Origin: Nitrospirota bacterium
Lineage (GTDB): Bacteria > Nitrospirota > Thermodesulfovibrionia > Thermodesulfovibrionales > SM23-35
Length of the DNA: 56,930 bases
Direction of reading: 5' to 3'
Assembly: GCA_013388455.1 (NCBI GenBank)
Contig: JACAFF010000032.1
Coordinates: forward strand, 1 to 56,930
Below are positions 29,180 to 38,146 of the stretch, one piece after another; positions within the stretch are counted from its first letter, which is position 1, and the number at the start of each line of letters is the position of its first letter. The position numbers and the translations under genes were made by a program. Below the pieces are notes generated by a model. It had not been told where the DNA came from. It worked only from the letters and a program-made list of their open reading frames with translations, and ran no database searches.

Positions 29180-30145
29180 ATGTCAAAAATAAAAGTAATT
29201 ATTTTAATTTTTACTTCTTTTGCGATATTTTTAATATCTCTATTTTCAGGACCGACTGTGATTAATCCTTTTGAGATGAACGGCACTGAAAAAGAGATAT
29301 TGTTTTCTATAAGACTCCCGCGTGTTATCGTTGCGTTTCTGATGGGCATGGCGCTCGGGTCATCAGGTGCTGTACTTCAGGGCATATTGAGAAACCCGCT
29401 CGCTGACCCTTATATACTCGGCATATCAAGTGGCTCTGCGCTGACTGCTGCATTAGGACTTCTTTCAGGATTTTATTTAACATCAACAATGAGCATTCCA
29501 CTATTGGCATTGACTGGCGCTACCTTTGTCAGCCTTCTTGTCGGAACACTCGGCTGGAAACAAAAAGGGATCTGGCCAGAAAGATTATTGCTTGCCGGTG
29601 TTGGACTTAGTTTTCTATTTTATGCACTCCTTATGCTCATCATAAGCATAGCACCAGGAGAGAGAATGAGGCGGGCAGTTCTCTGGATATTTGGCGATCT
29701 TTCTATAGCAGACTGGTCATTAATTCCGTATGGTGCTCTATTGATTGTCACAGGCTTTTTTATTGCAATATCCCGTGCAAAAGCTTTAAATGCATTGATG
29801 CTTGGTGATGAGTTTGCACACAGTCTCGGTTTCTCTGTAAATAAAGAAAGACTACTCTTTTTTATGTCTGTTGTGATAATGACCTCAGCATCTGTATCAC
29901 TCGGTGGGACTATAGGTTTTATAGGTCTTCTTATACCTCACATTATTCGGTTCCTTATTGGCGCTGACAACAGAGTATTAATCTTTATGTCTGCATTTTG
30001 CGGTGGAACATTTCTATGCATTGCAGATTTAATAGGAAGGTCTATTATATCCCCTGTAGAAATCCCGTCTGGAATTGTCACAGCTATAATTGGGTCACCA
30101 TATTTTCTTTACCTTTTAAGAAAAAAAGATATGCTAAGTGTATAG
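29180..30145 (+). CDS. FecCD/BtuC family ABC transporter permease
   Basis: 321 residues with about nine or ten hydrophobic helices. RLPRVIVAFLMGMALGSSGA and GILRNPLADPYILGISSGSA are the hallmark of the FecCD family, which imports iron-siderophores, heme or cobalamin. The ATPase gene follows after 12 nt. No substrate-binding protein is encoded here, so the cargo cannot be fixed. The first helix overlaps the start, and no strong ribosome site is seen. Confidence 0.92.
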   Translation: MSKIKVIILIFTSFAIFLISLFSGPTVINPFEMNGTEKEILFSIRLPRVIVAFLMGMALGSSGAVLQGILRNPLADPYILGISSGSALTAALGLLSGFYLTSTMSIPLLALTGATFVSLLVGTLGWKQKGIWPERLLLAGVGLSFLFYALLMLIISIAPGERMRRAVLWIFGDLSIADWSLIPYGALLIVTGFFIAISRAKALNALMLGDEFAHSLGFSVNKERLLFFMSVVIMTSASVSLGGTIGFIGLLIPHIIRFLIGADNRVLIFMSAFCGGTFLCIADLIGRSIISPVEIPSGIVTAIIGSPYFLYLLRKKDMLSV

Positions 30146-30157
30146 AGAGATAATTTT

Positions 30158-30910
30158 ATGACCTTTACAATCCTTGAGCTTGAAAATATTAGCTTTTCCT
30201 ATAATAAGAATAACCCCTTTATACAAAATTTTACTTTATCTATTAAAGATGGAGAATTTATCGGACTTTTAGGTGCAAATGGCTCTGGGAAATCCACTAT
30301 ACTTAAGCTCGCCAGCGGAATTTTAAAGCCGTCTGGCGGTAATATCAGATTATGGGGGAAACCACTCCATTCCTATAAAAATAAAGACCGGGCAAAACTA
30401 TTATGTTACCTTCCTCAGCTTCTCGATATAAATGTCCCATTTAGAGTAAAGGAACTTGTAGCAATGGGGCTTTATCCGTATGACATAATGCCAGAAATAA
30501 CTGTTGATGAAGCACTGGAGCTTGTAGGGCTTAAGGATAAATCCAATTCATATATAACACATCTTAGCGGTGGAGAAAAACGAAGAGTATTTATTGCAAT
30601 GACCCTTCTTCAGGGAGCAGGTATTCTGCTTCTGGATGAACCGCTTGCAAACCTTGACATAAAGTATCAACTTGAAATACAGAAATTACTCAGAGAATTA
30701 AAAGAAAAAAATAACATCTCGATTATAATGGCACTTCACGATATCACTATGGCACTACAATTCGAAAAGGTGATACTGATAAAAAATGGCAGTATCATAA
30801 ATAGTGGGGTACCGGAGACGGTTCTGAAAAAAGAGTTGTTAAAAGAAGCTTTTGATGTAAACATAGACATAAGCAAATGGAAATCTTTATTCGATAAAAT
30901 TTATGAATAA
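30158..30910 (+). CDS. ABC transporter ATP-binding protein (FecE/BtuD type)
   Basis: 250 residues. Walker A is GANGSGKST, the signature is LSGGEKRRV, Walker B is ILLLDEPLANLD, and the H-loop is in ALHDIT. It is the energy-coupling partner of the preceding permease. Its end overlaps the convergent fumarase beta gene by 10 nt. Confidence 0.94.
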   Translation: MTFTILELENISFSYNKNNPFIQNFTLSIKDGEFIGLLGANGSGKSTILKLASGILKPSGGNIRLWGKPLHSYKNKDRAKLLCYLPQLLDINVPFRVKELVAMGLYPYDIMPEITVDEALELVGLKDKSNSYITHLSGGEKRRVFIAMTLLQGAGILLLDEPLANLDIKYQLEIQKLLRELKEKNNISIIMALHDITMALQFEKVILIKNGSIINSGVPETVLKKELLKEAFDVNIDISKWKSLFDKIYE

Positions 30911-31545
30911 TCTGAATCAACAATCTCCTTAAGTTTTCTATAAGAACTATTCTCTATCTCCTGATGAAGATTTCCACCGTGTGCATCCATTGTCACGATT
31001 GCAGGAAATTCCTGAACATTTAAAAACCACATCGCTTCAGTCATTCCGAATTCTTCAAGTTTCCAGACATCAACTACAAATTTCACTTTTTCCGCAAGAT
31101 AGACAGCAGCACCTCCTATTGTCTGAAAATATACACACCCATATTTCTTGAGTGCCTTGAGTGTTTTTTCTCCCATTCCGCCCTTCCCCATAACACCCCG
31201 AAGCCCGTATCTTGAAATTATCTTATATTCATACATTTCAACACGCATGCTTGTTGTTGGTCCTGCTGCAAAGACTCTGTATCTTCCTTTTATCTTCTTT
31301 ATTATAGGACCACAATGATATAAAACTGACCCTTCAAGATTAAAAGGGATTTTTTTCCTGGATGGTTTTTCTTTAAATAAAAATTTATGTAGTTTATCTC
31401 TCCCGGTCACGACTATGCCGTTCAAAAAAACCATGTCTCCGGCTCTGAGGGAAAATGCGACATCCGCTGTAATTGGAAGATCTATAATTTTAGCCTTATG
31501 GTTTTTTAATTCTGTATTCTGTATTCCGAATTTTGAACGTTCCAT
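30901..31545 (-). CDS. Fumarate hydratase class I, beta (C-terminal) subunit
   Basis: 214 residues. Contains SVLYHCGPII, GPTTSMRVEMYE and GKGGMGEKTL, the C-terminal domain motifs of Fe-S (class I) fumarase in the two-subunit form. With the alpha subunit it interconverts fumarate and malate and is oxygen-sensitive. The start overlaps the alpha gene by 40 nt. The first residues before KIIDLPIT are encoded by a short tandem repeat (GAATACA units). Confidence 0.93.
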   Translation of the reverse strand: MERSKFGIQNTELKNHKAKIIDLPITADVAFSLRAGDMVFLNGIVVTGRDKLHKFLFKEKPSRKKIPFNLEGSVLYHCGPIIKKIKGRYRVFAAGPTTSMRVEMYEYKIISRYGLRGVMGKGGMGEKTLKALKKYGCVYFQTIGGAAVYLAEKVKFVVDVWKLEEFGMTEAMWFLNVQEFPAIVTMDAHGGNLHQEIENSSYRKLKEIVDSDYS

Positions 31546-32378
31546 ATCAGTCTTGCCCTTCTATCAGCCCAGCATGCTACGGAAACTTCCACAAAATATG
31601 AAGCAGGATGTCTATGATTAACTCCAATCTTAACACCGATGGCTGTTGTATTCCCACCCAGCCCGAGTGGCCCAATCCCAAGCCAATTTATTTCTCTGAG
31701 AATACGCTCCTCGAGTCTTAACAAGATTTTGTTGTTATTTTTATCCGTCAATTTTTTCATTAGTTGTTCTTTAGCAAGCCTTGTTACCTGATCTCTCGAG
31801 GCACCTACTCCGACTCCTATAATATAGGGTGGGCAACCCCTTCCCTGTGCTCTGTAAACAGCATCAATTACACATTTTCTCACACCATCAAGATCCCTTT
31901 CTGCCCTCAGTTCAGCAGATGGCAACTTATATAATTGACCAATGTTCTCGCTACCAGAACCTTTAAGCATAAGATCTACGATGAGTTTATTTCCTTTGAT
32001 TTCTTCAGTATATATCACGGGGAAGCCAATACCTGTATTGTCCCCAGAATTCTTATCAGTAAGAATATCAACAGCATTTGGTCTGAGAGGGATTACTTTT
32101 GTCGATGTCCTGGTTGCAATCATAATTTTTTTCTTTAATTCAATCTGGCTGAATCCATACGGAATTTTGACAAAAAAAACCGGAACACCTGTATCCTGGC
32201 ATATAGGTATCTGTCTATCCCTTGCAATCAAAATATTCTCAAGGATAACTGATAAAGCTGTTTTAGCATTAGACTTTTCTTTTTTCCGGACAGTTCTTAA
32301 GGCTTGCTCAATATCTGCGGGTAATGATGTCGCTGCACGTCTGTAAAGTTCTATAATGGCATTATCAAGTTTCTGCAT
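31506..32378 (-). CDS. Fumarate hydratase class I, alpha (N-terminal) subunit
   Basis: 290 residues. The Fe-S cysteine motif IPICQDTGVPVF, GCPPYIIGVGVGASRDQV and LGLGGNTTAIGVKI are all present. It forms the catalytic 4Fe-4S half of heterodimeric fumarase. The tail after CWADRRARL is unusual (NVQNSEYRIQN) and comes from the same tandem-repeat DNA that begins the beta subunit. Confidence 0.94.
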   Translation of the reverse strand: MQKLDNAIIELYRRAATSLPADIEQALRTVRKKEKSNAKTALSVILENILIARDRQIPICQDTGVPVFFVKIPYGFSQIELKKKIMIATRTSTKVIPLRPNAVDILTDKNSGDNTGIGFPVIYTEEIKGNKLIVDLMLKGSGSENIGQLYKLPSAELRAERDLDGVRKCVIDAVYRAQGRGCPPYIIGVGVGASRDQVTRLAKEQLMKKLTDKNNNKILLRLEERILREINWLGIGPLGLGGNTTAIGVKIGVNHRHPASYFVEVSVACWADRRARLIWNVQNSEYRIQN

Positions 32379-32588: not shown

Positions 32589-33287
32589 CTACGAAAATAT
32601 GCTGAAAAGCAAAAAGGTAACAATTGCTCCCATGAGCCCACCAAGTATAACCTCCCATATATTATGGGCTTTAACTATAACTCTACTCTGTGCAATCATA
32701 ATAGCAATTACAAAAGATATAAGAGAAACAGTAAAATTCTCTGTAATATATGTTGTTGCAACCCAGGCTGAAAAGGCAATCGCAGCATGTCCGCTTGGCA
32801 TACCACCACTTAAAGGAAGACCTTTTTTAACATACGATTTTGTTATTACAACAAGAATAACCACTATTATGAATGCAATCAGTGCAATCTCATCATTAGT
32901 ATGTTTAGTTATGTGAATTCCTGTTTTGAAAGACTCAACCAGATAAGGAAATAGGATAATATAACCTATTACAGCAACTCCGAATGCTGTTATAAGAACT
33001 GCGCCAGCAGCAATGTCTTTTGCGATGCGGGCTTTTTCACTCTCTTCGGGTGAAATGATATCAACAACAGTTTCAATAGCAGTGTTAAACATCTCTGCGA
33101 GCAGGACTGCAATAACGGATAATGTAATTATGAGAAATTCAAACCTTGATATCCCGAGAATATAACTTAAAAGAAGAACAAATGCTGCAGTATAAAAATG
33201 ATATCGTAAATGTCGCTGTGTCTTGGCTGCATGTAATATGCCTTCAATCGCAAAGTTAGCACTTTTAAACCATTTTTTTAGTAACAT
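32589..33287 (-). CDS. Fused diacylglycerol/undecaprenol kinase and PAP2 phosphatase
   Basis: 232 residues. The N-terminal half (about 1-115) is a DgkA-type kinase with AAKTQRHLRYHF and the signature LAEMFNTAIETVVD. The C-terminal half is a PAP2 phosphatase with SGGMPSGHAA and SRVIVKAHNIWEV (Glu where Asp is usual). The whole is multi-spanning. Kinase and phosphatase of a lipid such as undecaprenol in one chain could form a phosphorylation switch for lipid-carrier recycling. That function is inferred. Confidence 0.85.
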   Translation of the reverse strand: MLLKKWFKSANFAIEGILHAAKTQRHLRYHFYTAAFVLLLSYILGISRFEFLIITLSVIAVLLAEMFNTAIETVVDIISPEESEKARIAKDIAAGAVLITAFGVAVIGYIILFPYLVESFKTGIHITKHTNDEIALIAFIIVVILVVITKSYVKKGLPLSGGMPSGHAAIAFSAWVATTYITENFTVSLISFVIAIMIAQSRVIVKAHNIWEVILGGLMGAIVTFLLFSIFS

Positions 33288-33300
33288 TATAAATCAAACC

Positions 33301-34449
33301 CTAAGGTAGATTATTCATATTATTCCCACTTTGAAGTTCCGGGCACAGAATCTTTGCAATCTCCTTTATTAATATCGTGTTTTCCCTGTGATTTTTAACT
33401 GCAACCCTTAAATATGTGCTGTCAAGACCTCTAAAGTTAGAACAATCCCTCAAGAGAATACCTTTTTTCAGCAGCCTTTTATAGATTTCAGGTGCATTTT
33501 TAAATCTCAATAAATAGAAATTGGCATCAGATTCAAAGTATTCTATTTTAAGTTTCTTAAAATTCTTTTCAAAAAACTTTTTTTCATCTTTAATAAGTCT
33601 TAATGTTTCCTTCATATATACTTTATCTTTCAGGGAAATAACAGCAGCCCGTTGAGCAAGACTATTTACAGTCCATGGTTGTTTTGCTCTTTTAAGACTT
33701 CCAATCAGACCTGAAGGGAAAATGCCATATCCTATCCTGAGACCAGGTAGTGCGTAGAAAAAAGACATTGACCTTAAAACAATAAGATATGGATTTGATA
33801 TTGTTTCTGATATTATAGAATTATCTGGAATGAAATCAATAAAGGCTTCATCAACTATAAGATAGCATCTGTTTTCTCTTGCAGCATCTGCAATCTTTAT
33901 AACATCATCTTTACTTATCAACTTTCCGGTAGGATTATTCGGATTGCATAAAAATACCATGTCAATCTTTCCCTCTCTACGTTCCATTTCAGCTATAAAT
34001 TCTTCAGGTTCGATCTCAAACCGCTTTTCCTCTTTAAGGAAGTAAAATTCTATCTCTGCTCTTCGCTCCTGGCTCTCTGTTATTGTTACTGCTCTTTCAT
34101 ATTCTGAAAATGTTGGTGCCATAATAAGAACCCTCTGAGGTTTTAATACTTTCACTATCAAGTAAATAAGCTCGGTGCTACCGTTTCCGCAAAGAATATT
34201 CTCAAAACTAATACCGTAATATTGTGCAATTCTCTTTCTTAACCTGTCTGTTTCAGTGTCCGGATAATTATGAAGATATTTAAGATTTTTTCTTATCTCT
34301 GCCTTGACCTTTTTAGAAACACCAAGTGGATTTACTGAAGAGCTGAAATCTATGATTTTACGTTCTTGCATGTTTAGTGCATTTGCAAGATAGTAAATAT
34401 TTCCACCATGTTCAAATGCATGACAGTCAATAGATATTTCCTTTTTCAT
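33301..34449 (-). CDS. CobD-like (threonine-phosphate decarboxylase family) protein lacking the PLP lysine
   Basis: 382 residues of fold-type I aminotransferase. CHAFEHGGNIYYLANALN and DFSSSVNPLG are the CobD/CobC-type N-terminus, with CGNGSTELIYL, LCNPNNPTG and IVDEAFIDF following. CobD decarboxylates threonine phosphate to the aminopropanol phosphate of cobalamin. In this sequence the Schiff-base lysine expected in the LRS-x-[ST]-K motif is Phe230 (LRSMSFFYALPGLRIGYG; codon TTT at 33760-33762). As read, the enzyme cannot bind PLP in the normal way. It could be inactive, repurposed, or affected by a sequencing error. HisC-like enzymes share the same motif, so the family choice rests on the N-terminus. 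Confidence 0.8.
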   Translation of the reverse strand: MKKEISIDCHAFEHGGNIYYLANALNMQERKIIDFSSSVNPLGVSKKVKAEIRKNLKYLHNYPDTETDRLRKRIAQYYGISFENILCGNGSTELIYLIVKVLKPQRVLIMAPTFSEYERAVTITESQERRAEIEFYFLKEEKRFEIEPEEFIAEMERREGKIDMVFLCNPNNPTGKLISKDDVIKIADAARENRCYLIVDEAFIDFIPDNSIISETISNPYLIVLRSMSFFYALPGLRIGYGIFPSGLIGSLKRAKQPWTVNSLAQRAAVISLKDKVYMKETLRLIKDEKKFFEKNFKKLKIEYFESDANFYLLRFKNAPEIYKRLLKKGILLRDCSNFRGLDSTYLRVAVKNHRENTILIKEIAKILCPELQSGNNMNNLP

Positions 34450-34497: not shown

Positions 34498-35154
34498 ATG
34501 ACGAAAACTTATTATATCTCACAATTAAAAGAAATTTACCGGCTTAAAAAGAGTGCGATTTTCTCTCGCTTGAAGGAATTCAGGAATCTCTGGCTGCATG
34601 GAAGTGATGAAGACATTTTTGCTGAATTAGCTTTCTGCCTATTAACCCCTCAATCAAAAGCAAAATCCTGCTGGGCTGCAACTGAGAGATTGAAAGAATA
34701 TAATCTTTTATTTGATGGTTCTGCTGAACATATTAAGAAATGCCTTCACCATTTTGTTAGGTTTCATAATAAGAAAGCTGAATATCTTGTGAGAGTGCGC
34801 AATCATTTTATGCACGATGGTGTTCTATCAATAAAAAAGCAACTTAATAATTTCAAAAATGTATACGAATGCAGGGACTGGCTGGTGAAAAATATAAAGG
34901 GCTTTGGCTATAAAGAAGCAAGCCATTTTCTGAGAAATATTGGTTTTGGAGATAAAATCGCAATCCTTGATCGACACATATTAAAAAATCTTTATAAGCT
35001 CGGCGTAATACAGGAAATTCCAGAAACCATCAGCAGGTCAAAATATCTCAATATAGAAATAAAAATGGCTGAATTTGGAAAGAAGCATAACATCCCTCTT
35101 TCACACCTTGACATACTGCTCTGGTTCAAAGAAACAGGAGAGATATTCAAGTGA
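34498..35154 (+). CDS. N-glycosylase/DNA lyase, Ogg2 type
   Basis: 218 residues of the HhH-GPD fold. The catalytic lysine is K139 in IKGFGYKEASHFLRNIGF and the aspartate is D158 in AILDRHIL, the spacing of archaeal-type Ogg2. It excises 8-oxoguanine and nicks the strand. It is a single gene between divergent cobD-like and convergent peptidase-like genes. Confidence 0.88.
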   Translation: MTKTYYISQLKEIYRLKKSAIFSRLKEFRNLWLHGSDEDIFAELAFCLLTPQSKAKSCWAATERLKEYNLLFDGSAEHIKKCLHHFVRFHNKKAEYLVRVRNHFMHDGVLSIKKQLNNFKNVYECRDWLVKNIKGFGYKEASHFLRNIGFGDKIAILDRHILKNLYKLGVIQEIPETISRSKYLNIEIKMAEFGKKHNIPLSHLDILLWFKETGEIFK

Positions 35155-35164
35155 TGGCTTATTG

Positions 35165-38146
35165 TCAGAGGCTAACAGCAAATTCATATTCTTTGTAGCC
35201 TGATAAAAAACCTTTCCTTAATATCTTGATCTTAATCTTTTCCCCACGTTTTTTATCAGACATAAAGATGCGAATATCTTCTATCTCCTCAACTTCCCAA
35301 TCATCGAGAGAAACAATTATGTCTCCTTTCTTAAGTCCAGCAGACTTTGCTATGCTTCCTGGAATTACCTTCTCAACCTTGATCCAACTATCTGTCTTTT
35401 TCAAACTTATACCGAGTTTCAATGTAACCGGGGCTTGCTGCTTGGATGGTAAAAAGATGAAATGTCCGATATTTTCGTCAATTGAACCAGTATAGGGTAT
35501 TAGCGTAATATATTCCTTTCCATTCAATCTAAATACTCTTTTTGGAATTCCATAATCGTACATTATGTGTCCAACGCCTGCGAGAACAACCATCTGATAT
35601 CCAGGATTCTTTTCCATAAAATCATGAATGGAATGAGCCATGGTCTCATCCCACAGTATCTGGGACTGGTGGAAAGTGTCAAAACTTTTAATCTCCTTAT
35701 TCGCATGTTGATTAAAAATATCTTTGAGCATCTCCTTGTAATCCTCATCAGACATATCCATATTATTCGGTATCACTATTTTTTCGATATCGCTCAGAGA
35801 ATCAATACCTTCGGTGGCAACCTTCCTCACAATCTCTGACCATTGATTCAATGCTATAACAGGAATATTCTTTGCCTTTGCAAATTCTACAATTTCACGA
35901 TATAGATTATAATCAAACTGCCATCTGCTGAAATATTGAGTTTCTTTTAAAAATTCCTTTTCATTTATGACTCCAGATATATAGTCATCAATAAATTTTT
36001 GAAAAGGTTTTTGAAACATTTCCATCCCGATAGCAAATTTATGCCCTTTTTCGTGCAGGCTCATGATTATCTTAAGTTGCACCTTATGATCTTCATAATT
36101 CGTATGCCTTTCACCCACATAAATAATGGGTTTATCGAGTATATTTTCAATAATTTCATCGAGTGTCTGTCCACTTTTAGGCTGGATTACCTTGATAGGT
36201 TCGTATAAATTTACTACTATGCCGTTTTCGGAATCGTCTGTTCTCTTCTCAACAATAACACCTTTTCCAAATCGAACGAATGAGTAGTCCAAAAAATGGA
36301 CTATTTTCTCTGCTGCAAGATCAACCTCTTCTTTAGAGTCTGCATGCACAACAGCCAGGACATTTGAGGTATTTAAAGGATTCTTCTTAATAGAAAGAAA
36401 GAAACCTGAACCTGTATCTTTTATATTTCCAAAAAGCCTCTGTATAACCTGATTATTAATATTTAAAACAATTAATGATGCTATTGTTTTTATTTCTTCA
36501 TTGGTAATATCATTTTCGTTTATTGAAATAAACCCCTTTTTTTCGAAGATACGTATGAACTCTTCAAATATTTTTGTATTATTATCAGAAACAACAATAT
36601 ATTTTTTCCCTTCTCTAAAAAGGGTTGATATAACAGGATGATTTTCTTTATCAGTAATCTTTCGCATTATATTGTATTCTCTGTCAAAAATTATCTCTTT
36701 AATTGAACCCTGAACAGGAATCTCAAAATATTCTCTTTCTTTTTCAAGATGGAGTGTTTGATATATGACACTTTGATCTGTCTTAATCTCTACCACTATA
36801 TCAAGCGTATAAGGTTCATTTTTCTGTATTATCTCGAATGTTGCTGTAGGAATTCCTTTCAAAACTAATTCCTTCGCTTCACTGATCTCTAAATTGGGGA
36901 ACCCTTTGCGGTTCAGCCATTGATCAAAAAACCAGGAAAGGTCTTTGTCCGCAATTTTTTCAAAGGTCTCACAGATATCATCCCATGATGCATTTTTGAA
37001 TTGGTTATTTTTGATAAACTCTTTGAGTCCACTATAGAAAGCCTCTTTACCGATAAGATTTTTCAGCATATGGAACAGCATAGCAGATTTCCCCTGACCT
37101 ATTGCTTTTGCAGAAAATCCATTGCCAGCTTTAAAATCCCTCAGTGAAATCTCACTCAGCGGGTCAACAAAATTTACGTATTCTGTAAGCAATCTCTTCC
37201 TATATCGCCATCCTTCATTTTTCTCTTCACTTATAAAGTGATCAGATAGGTAAGCAGTTAATCCATCTGCCCAATTGCCTTCTCTGTGATCAATATAAAC
37301 GGAATTTCCAAACCATTGGGATACAATCTGACGGCTGAATAAATTTTCATCTAAAAGAGAGAAAACATCCTCTCCAAAAACTACAAATGTAGGCATTGAA
37401 TAGCTTGCTGGCTGTATTGTTTTGACAATTGAAAATCTTTTATACGGATAAGGATAAAGCAAATCGTTGTATAGTTTCAGATATTTTATAGCATTTCTGA
37501 TATATGTCTCTGCAAAATCTCTATCTTCTGGAAGAAAATAACCATAAACATCTATCTCTTGAAAATTTTTTTTAACTTCATAGTATCTTCCTGCTATAAG
37601 TGTTAAAGCATTTAAAGGATGCGTAAATTCAAATGAGTATTCAGTCCCCTGTTCTTTTTCTGCCATTGTGATCTCATCTGCCTCTGAGATGGCAGTAAAT
37701 CCCTTCGGAAGTATCGCTTTCAAGCGATAATTAGCCAACCCATCAAAAAATGGATACCACTCTCTCAATAATACTACCTCTTTTTCTGTAATAAAGTTAT
37801 GTTTTGCATTCACCGAATGTTGTAAGAGAGAGTTTCGAACCTCAGTATTGAATCTGCCTTCATACGTAATCTCAAAAACCCCTGTCCCTTTGACTTGTAT
37901 GACATTGTCGATTATTTCAGGCTTATACTCATCTCCGTTATGTTTTACTGACAGTATTTCAAGATGCGCTAGCGCGATGTCTTTTTTTACATTTTCATAG
38001 AATTGGATAATAGCCTTTCCTTTTAAGAGTCCATTCTGGACATCAACAGAAACTCTTAAATCATAAAAGGGTATTTTCTCTGCGGCTTCTCCAAAAGATG
38101 CAGAAAACAAACTGAAAAAAAATAAAGATATAGTGAGAAATTTCAT
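35165..38146 (-). CDS. Exported fusion: inactive M1 peptidase-like, ChaN (DUF399) and PDZ
   Basis: 993 residues with a signal peptide (about 1-21). Residues about 25-480 match M1 aminopeptidases in layout, but the HExxH zinc site is replaced by RQIVSQWFGN (274-283), and the second Glu site reads NWADGLTAY (291-299). Both metal-binding His and the catalytic Glu are gone. Residues about 640-900 form a ChaN-like domain with IIYVGERHTNYEDH (675-687), GMEMFQKP and a late GVGHIMYDYG. A PDZ domain closes the protein (about 911-975). ChaN binds heme or iron at the outer membrane in Campylobacter. A role as an envelope scaffold or substrate capture protein is only inference. Confidence 0.8.
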   Translation of the reverse strand: MKFLTISLFFFSLFSASFGEAAEKIPFYDLRVSVDVQNGLLKGKAIIQFYENVKKDIALAHLEILSVKHNGDEYKPEIIDNVIQVKGTGVFEITYEGRFNTEVRNSLLQHSVNAKHNFITEKEVVLLREWYPFFDGLANYRLKAILPKGFTAISEADEITMAEKEQGTEYSFEFTHPLNALTLIAGRYYEVKKNFQEIDVYGYFLPEDRDFAETYIRNAIKYLKLYNDLLYPYPYKRFSIVKTIQPASYSMPTFVVFGEDVFSLLDENLFSRQIVSQWFGNSVYIDHREGNWADGLTAYLSDHFISEEKNEGWRYRKRLLTEYVNFVDPLSEISLRDFKAGNGFSAKAIGQGKSAMLFHMLKNLIGKEAFYSGLKEFIKNNQFKNASWDDICETFEKIADKDLSWFFDQWLNRKGFPNLEISEAKELVLKGIPTATFEIIQKNEPYTLDIVVEIKTDQSVIYQTLHLEKEREYFEIPVQGSIKEIIFDREYNIMRKITDKENHPVISTLFREGKKYIVVSDNNTKIFEEFIRIFEKKGFISINENDITNEEIKTIASLIVLNINNQVIQRLFGNIKDTGSGFFLSIKKNPLNTSNVLAVVHADSKEEVDLAAEKIVHFLDYSFVRFGKGVIVEKRTDDSENGIVVNLYEPIKVIQPKSGQTLDEIIENILDKPIIYVGERHTNYEDHKVQLKIIMSLHEKGHKFAIGMEMFQKPFQKFIDDYISGVINEKEFLKETQYFSRWQFDYNLYREIVEFAKAKNIPVIALNQWSEIVRKVATEGIDSLSDIEKIVIPNNMDMSDEDYKEMLKDIFNQHANKEIKSFDTFHQSQILWDETMAHSIHDFMEKNPGYQMVVLAGVGHIMYDYGIPKRVFRLNGKEYITLIPYTGSIDENIGHFIFLPSKQQAPVTLKLGISLKKTDSWIKVEKVIPGSIAKSAGLKKGDIIVSLDDWEVEEIEDIRIFMSDKKRGEKIKIKILRKGFLSGYKEYEFAVSL

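Follow-up and report, generated by a model that had tools for sequence, protein, structure and literature searches.

A CobD homologue without its PLP lysine in the Thermodesulfovibrionales: a probable pseudoenzyme kept for a lysine-independent role

The DNA discussed here, which we call the window, is the whole stretch of 56,930 nucleotides of contig JACAFF010000032.1 from a Nitrospirota bacterium of the order Thermodesulfovibrionales. The gene of interest in it encodes a homologue of CobD in which the codon for the PLP Schiff-base lysine specifies phenylalanine (Table 1). A gene for a fusion of DgkA (diacylglycerol kinase) with a PAP2 domain starts 13 bp downstream, and the two are likely to form one transcript. 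Two fumarase genes and genes for a BtuCD-like transporter lie further along on this side, while a gene for an 8-oxoguanine DNA glycosylase diverges on the other. Beyond the glycosylase, at positions 35165-38146, is a gene that is kept near the lysine-less cobD in most of the family; it encodes a 993-aa protein that combines a part resembling peptidase M1 with a ChaN haem-binding (Tiki superfamily) domain and, at the C-terminus, a PDZ domain.

Table 1. Genes and features around the lysine-less cobD homologue in the window
Feature	Position	Strand	Basis
BtuC-like permease (FecCD family)	29180..30145	+	PF01032
BtuD-like ABC ATPase	30158..30910	+	PF00005; synteny
Fumarase C-terminal subunit, syntenic	30901..31545	-	PF05683
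Fumarase N-terminal subunit, syntenic	31506..32378	-	PF05681
DgkA (diacylglycerol kinase)-PAP2 fusion	32589..33287	-	Pfam PF01219 + PF01569
Lysine-less CobD homologue, 382 aa	33301..34449	-	TIGR01140; AlphaFold2 model; Foldseek
Codon TTT = Phe230, PLP Schiff-base lysine position (K216 of Salmonella CobD)	33760..33762	-	Sequence; 1lc5 alignment; tblastn columns in relatives
Conserved basic helix, residues 44-59, VSKKVKAEIRKNLKYL (helix 46-58 in model)	codons 34273..34320	-	Conservation windows; model; DNA pattern search
8-oxoguanine DNA glycosylase (Ogg-HhH), divergent neighbour of the cobD homologue	34498..35154	+	PF22175; synteny

Read on the minus strand, the codons at the site are AGG TCA ATG TCT TTT TTC TAC, where TTT is F230 in the motif LRSMSFFYALPGLRIGYG. 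When the protein is aligned with Salmonella CobD (PDB 1lc5, E 1.7e-65), F230 falls column for column on the PLP lysine (LRSLTKFYAIPGLRLGY versus LRSMSFFYALPGLRIGY), which bears out an earlier note on this DNA that had placed a phenylalanine there. The same note had described all other fold-type I motifs as intact. Residues H14, E116, Y117, N171, D200, S227, R238, R334 and R348 are indeed present, but T229 is a serine. The protein scores 321.3 bits against the CobD equivalog model TIGR01140 and so passes its cut-off of 290.55, a comparison that applies to the window protein; the 16 lysine-less members scanned with this model all have E values of 0.001 or better. An AlphaFold2 model, for which the window protein was aligned with 27 CobD relatives, reaches a mean pLDDT of 91, and its best Foldseek matches are four entries of Salmonella CobD (1lc7, 1lc8, 1lkc and 1lc5; TM 0.88). 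Set against 1lc7 (TM 0.88, rmsd 1.6), it has the fold of the fold type I PLP enzymes. No internal aldimine is possible in such a protein, and it should therefore not decarboxylate threonine phosphate; the sequence is strong reason to think that the decarboxylase activity has been lost.

All 80 CobD homologues taken from reference genomes across many phyla retain the lysine. The window's own family, sampled by 20 genomes, has 14 homologues from 11 genera (that of the window included) that are without it, having instead F, L (three), Y (four), G (two), N (two), H or S. We surveyed 176 genomes of the order with a lysine-less profile, taking matches as far as 1e-60, and eight further lysine-less copies came from four other families, with L (three), N (two), S, A and P. 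This makes 22 copies with nine different residues (F, L, Y, G, N, H, S, A, P) in the place of the lysine, which is present in all 128 other aligned copies of the order and the outgroups. Since the lysine-less state spans 11 genera of one family, it is not recent. A lysine shifted to another position, which the earlier note had named as a result that would refute its reading, was looked for as well. Lysines 46, 47, 49, 57, 72, 180, 274, 290, 299 and 352 are conserved in the lysine-less copies; none of them lies in the active-site segments, and all are common in lysine-bearing copies too.

A separate observation concerns GC-rich palindromic repeat-like elements (PSPSRGEGKGGGE and similar in translation), which are inserted in frame in the cobD of five genomes (L127 10091, L134 10122, L138 7235, L140 10047 and L142 6775). 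They mostly fall in a loop near residues 122-158, and they occur in lysine-less and lysine-bearing genes alike.

The product of CobD is aminopropanol phosphate, which CbiB joins to adenosylcobyric acid (PMC6249242). We found no match to CbiB (PF03186), CobS or CbiC in the window's genome, which is 99.4% complete. The earlier note had also proposed a search for a second cobD in this genome, and no lysine-bearing copy was found; the next best proteins are HisC-like, with 35% and 29% identity. The same association is seen across the order: 17 of the 22 lysine-less copies, that of the window included, are in genomes without CbiB, and the remaining five share their genome with a lysine-bearing CobD (G012, G036, G071, G148 and G151). 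Lysine-bearing copies sit in CbiB-positive genomes in 112 of 114 cases, and the two exceptions, for which no CbiB was found, are genomes that are 71% and 64% complete. Both states meet in G012, where the lysine-bearing copy adjoins cbiB and the lysine-less one stands at a locus of the window's type. In G001 the salvage genes cobU-cobT-cobS remain near the lysine-less cobD, and the cbiP and cbiB of the lysine-bearing genome G005 are missing there. The salvage operon of G001 also contains, between the lysine-less cobD and cobU (L138 5222-5914), a gene for a Diphthami_syn_2 (DUF71-like) protein; this family has been predicted to take part in B12 salvage (PMC3541065).

How many times was the lysine lost? 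Loss of the lysine can be contrasted with CbiB status or copy number twice when only well supported branches count, and six times on the best tree. Of these contrasts nearly all have the same direction and none the opposite, at a number where a sign test cannot reach 0.05. The independence of the losses is thus limited, to between two and six events. Monophyly of the 14 lysine-less copies of the family is not rejected (AU p 0.23). A single origin is neither established nor excluded, as the best tree has four changes with 66 proteins and six with 140 (AU p 0.23 and 0.39).

If the catalytic lysine is gone, it is worth asking which parts of the protein are kept. A basic helix at residues 44-59 stands out. 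Its net charge is about +5 in lysine-less copies versus +1.4 in those CobDs of the order that do not have the motif. Over these residues the motif-bearing lysine-less copies have a mean pairwise identity of 0.67, second among 303 windows. The value is 0.65 in motif-bearing lysine-bearing copies and 0.28 in the 81 lysine-bearing copies of the order that are motif-less, where the segment ranks only 284 of 303. Among five divergent lysine-less proteins it outdoes all 301 other windows in conservation. Helices 18-25, 66-80 and 262-280 are likewise better conserved in motif-bearing copies. The motif occurs in 21 of the 22 lysine-less copies, a count to be read with the fact that copies were collected by likeness to a motif-bearing profile, so that very diverged motif-less ones could be missed. 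The exception, in G042 (L326 8917-10059), has a serine at the lysine position and comes from a CbiB-negative genome; it appears to be a separate case.

The helix motif is by no means confined to lysine-less proteins. It is found in 32 lysine-bearing copies of the order and in four more lysine-bearing CobDs of the same class but outside the order, which stand beside other cob genes. Across 396 genomes of the phylum a DNA pattern for the helix core gave 23 matches, and its reversed control gave none; 19 of the matches are in CobD genes of our set, and the four outside the order, when checked, were CobD genes as well. In G036, G071, G148 and G151 a motif-less lysine-bearing CobD coexists with a motif-bearing lysine-less copy. 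Judged from this distribution on a tree that was built with the motif columns left out, the motif predates the loss of the lysine. Normal lysine-bearing CobDs, some of them in cob operons, share the motif, so it could be no more than a trait of the lineage. Two further arrangements may be mentioned. In G105 there are two CobD copies (L195 and L196), both bearing lysine and motif. In family f3 (L018, L020, L267, L276, L286, L293, L295 and L304) a lysine-bearing, motif-bearing cobD directly follows genes for a type II/IV secretion ATPase (T2SSE) and a small receiver-like protein, and stands alone, away from cbiB.

We also considered whether the neighbours could name the function. In ten genomes of the window's family the lysine-less cobD is directly upstream of the DgkA-PAP2 gene, with a gap of 0-78 bp, and all ten DgkA-PAP2 copies of at least 75% identity in the family are directly downstream of such a gene. 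Usually the fumarase genes and BtuCD are close by, and the 8-oxoguanine glycosylase gene flanks the lysine-less cobD on its opposite side. Genera g2 and g5 have btuC-btuD followed directly by the lysine-less cobD. In other families the neighbours are a type II/IV secretion ATPase and a receiver-like protein (f3), a winged-helix regulator (f7) or a SPOR-TPR protein (f6). Only the window's family has DgkA-PAP2 as a constant neighbour, and no partner is common to all families. Since the neighbours differ in this way, the context does not name the role.

Several suggestions can be made regarding what such a protein might do, and the state of its active site bears on most of them. D200 and E201 are retained in all 22 lysine-less copies, N171 in 21, and Y117 mostly, including in the window's family. 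H14, F114, E116, R334 and R348, nearly invariant in lysine-bearing copies, vary in lysine-less ones, and R238, kept in the window's family, is lost in seven of the eight lysine-less copies elsewhere in the order. The window protein itself retains all of these residues. In lysine-less copies the conservation of the active-site windows 86-118 and 222-234 drops. One suggestion is that the protein is a repurposed enzyme with lysine-free cofactor chemistry, in the manner of the PMP-dependent 3-dehydratases of the ColD type (PMC8987622), another residue or the substrate taking over from the lysine. PLP or PMP could still bind through D200, E201 and N171, with Y117 and R238 in the window's family, and the ColD-type enzymes are a precedent. 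We nevertheless regard this as unlikely: the replacing residue is inconstant (Y, L, G, N, F, H, S, A or P), most of these could not act as a base, and R238 is mostly gone outside the window's family. A non-catalytic role is favoured because the substrate-site residues drift in the sister copies and the replacements vary; cofactor binding or unusual chemistry keeps a small share of the probability because D200, N171 and Y117 are mostly kept.

The same residues might serve a ligand sensor, which would bind PLP, PMP or a phosphoamino acid without turnover and signal the state of vitamin B6 or B12. D200 and N171, kept in nearly all copies, are the expected contacts of the PLP ring, and the position of the gene directly after btuD in genera g2 and g5 would suit such a sensor. 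We would give this suggestion, too, only a slight chance. H14, R334 and R348, the residues expected to hold the substrate phosphate, are among those that vary; D200 and N171 may serve folding; and the linkage to btuCD does not extend to all families.

Another suggestion is that the protein does nothing at all. The gene would have become dispensable after loss of CbiB and would be on its way to a pseudogene, the intact frames being no more than a reflection of the time since the loss. The ratio dN/dS (Nei-Gojobori) is 0.22-0.36 between lysine-less species pairs versus 0.08-0.19 between lysine-bearing pairs, about two to three times as high; the active-site segments drift; and 34 other CbiB-negative genomes of the order gave no member of the CobD family at the threshold of the search. 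These observations speak for slow decay. It is improbable all the same, as none of the 22 frames is broken although the copies range widely in divergence, the ratio stays well below 1 between species that already are without the lysine, a helix is what the most diverged copies conserve best, and five lysine-less copies persist next to a lysine-bearing CobD. The lysine-less genes are under purifying selection, which is weaker than in lysine-bearing ones, since their dN/dS is higher. The earlier note had supposed that the frame was either under selection or only recently changed; selection holds and recent change does not, given the spread over 11 genera.

Both CobD and HisC form dimers in which the active sites are shared, and five genomes have a lysine-less and a lysine-bearing copy together. 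This brings to mind an inactive subunit that pairs with another PLP enzyme, the part that LCB1 plays for LCB2 in serine palmitoyltransferase. The suggestion is very improbable, for in 17 genomes with a lysine-less copy, the window's included, there is no lysine-bearing CobD for pairing, and in the latter the nearest paralogues are the two HisC-like proteins. Finally, a sequencing or assembly error at the codon, which the earlier note had listed beside an inactive regulator and a repurposed enzyme, can be dismissed, as three base changes would be required and 21 further lysine-less homologues exist in other genomes.

A homologous fold, a lost catalytic residue and purifying selection on the gene are the marks of a pseudoenzyme, and the window protein has all three. 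The reading that we consider probable, with moderate confidence, is that it is a pseudoenzyme derived from CobD and kept for a lysine-independent binding or scaffolding role that is older than the loss of catalysis; very probably its job is different from that of CobD. The course of events may have been as follows. The CobD of this lineage would have a second, lysine-free feature in the basic surface helix 44-59 together with helices 18-25, 66-80 and 262-280. Where CbiB was lost, or where aminopropanol phosphate came from a second CobD, catalysis would no longer be under selection. The lysine and part of the substrate site would then drift, while the protein would be retained for its other role. 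Non-catalytic binding or scaffolding would be the likeliest mechanism, in which the basic helix may dock an acidic partner. Whether this would be a nucleic acid, a protein or an anionic membrane is conjecture.

A broader form of this proposal can be offered tentatively, with chances that we would put just short of even. The CobD of this lineage would be a moonlighting protein, which makes aminopropanol phosphate for B12 and has a lysine-independent function on its basic helix. Loss of CbiB or duplication would repeatedly have freed the second function, leaving a new family of CobD pseudoenzymes that are annotated as CobD. We found no non-catalytic or moonlighting role of CobD, and no CobD pseudoenzyme, in open papers, most subscription journals being outside the scope of the search.

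Whatever the function is, the protein fails the defining lysine of CobD and hence should not be filed as a functional CobD, despite the curated model. CobD serves to score bacteria as makers or salvagers of B12. Because the protein passes the CobD threshold and yet should be inactive, an entire family of genomes probably carries a mistaken annotation. The lysine has gone where there is no need for aminopropanol phosphate, and the remainder of the protein has stayed; this amounts to a natural separation of function, and it points to an undescribed role of CobD.

The window protein can be compared with several related proteins. SMUL_1544 of Sulfurospirillum multivorans (6oux) is likewise a CobD-family variant; it has a solved structure and is among the Foldseek matches, but it is described as a decarboxylase and, at 23% identity, is more distant from the window protein than Salmonella CobD is. 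In the sugar 3-dehydratases ColD, E1 and SpnQ, which have the aminotransferase fold, the PLP lysine is replaced by a catalytic histidine (PMC8987622). The window protein shares the replacement but has phenylalanine, and its relatives have nine different residues overall, histidine in only one of 22. SPTLC1/LCB1 is the inactive subunit of serine palmitoyltransferase and forms a dimer with its active paralogue (PMC3794620). Like it, the window protein is a homologue of fold type I PLP enzymes that has been kept in evolution without the PLP lysine; unlike it, the protein has no active CobD paralogue in its own genome, and the same is true of most genomes with a lysine-less CobD. The closest comparison is with CobD of Salmonella enterica (L-threonine-O-3-phosphate decarboxylase; 1lc5/1lc7), with which there is full-length homology at 35% identity, a predicted fold that agrees at TM 0.88, and a shared DEAF, NPNNPTG, LRS...LR context and PWTVN. 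The window protein differs from that enzyme in having no PLP lysine and an extra basic helix at residues 44-59, in being encoded next to dgkA-PAP2 and not in a cob operon, and in belonging to a genome without a CbiB to use the product.
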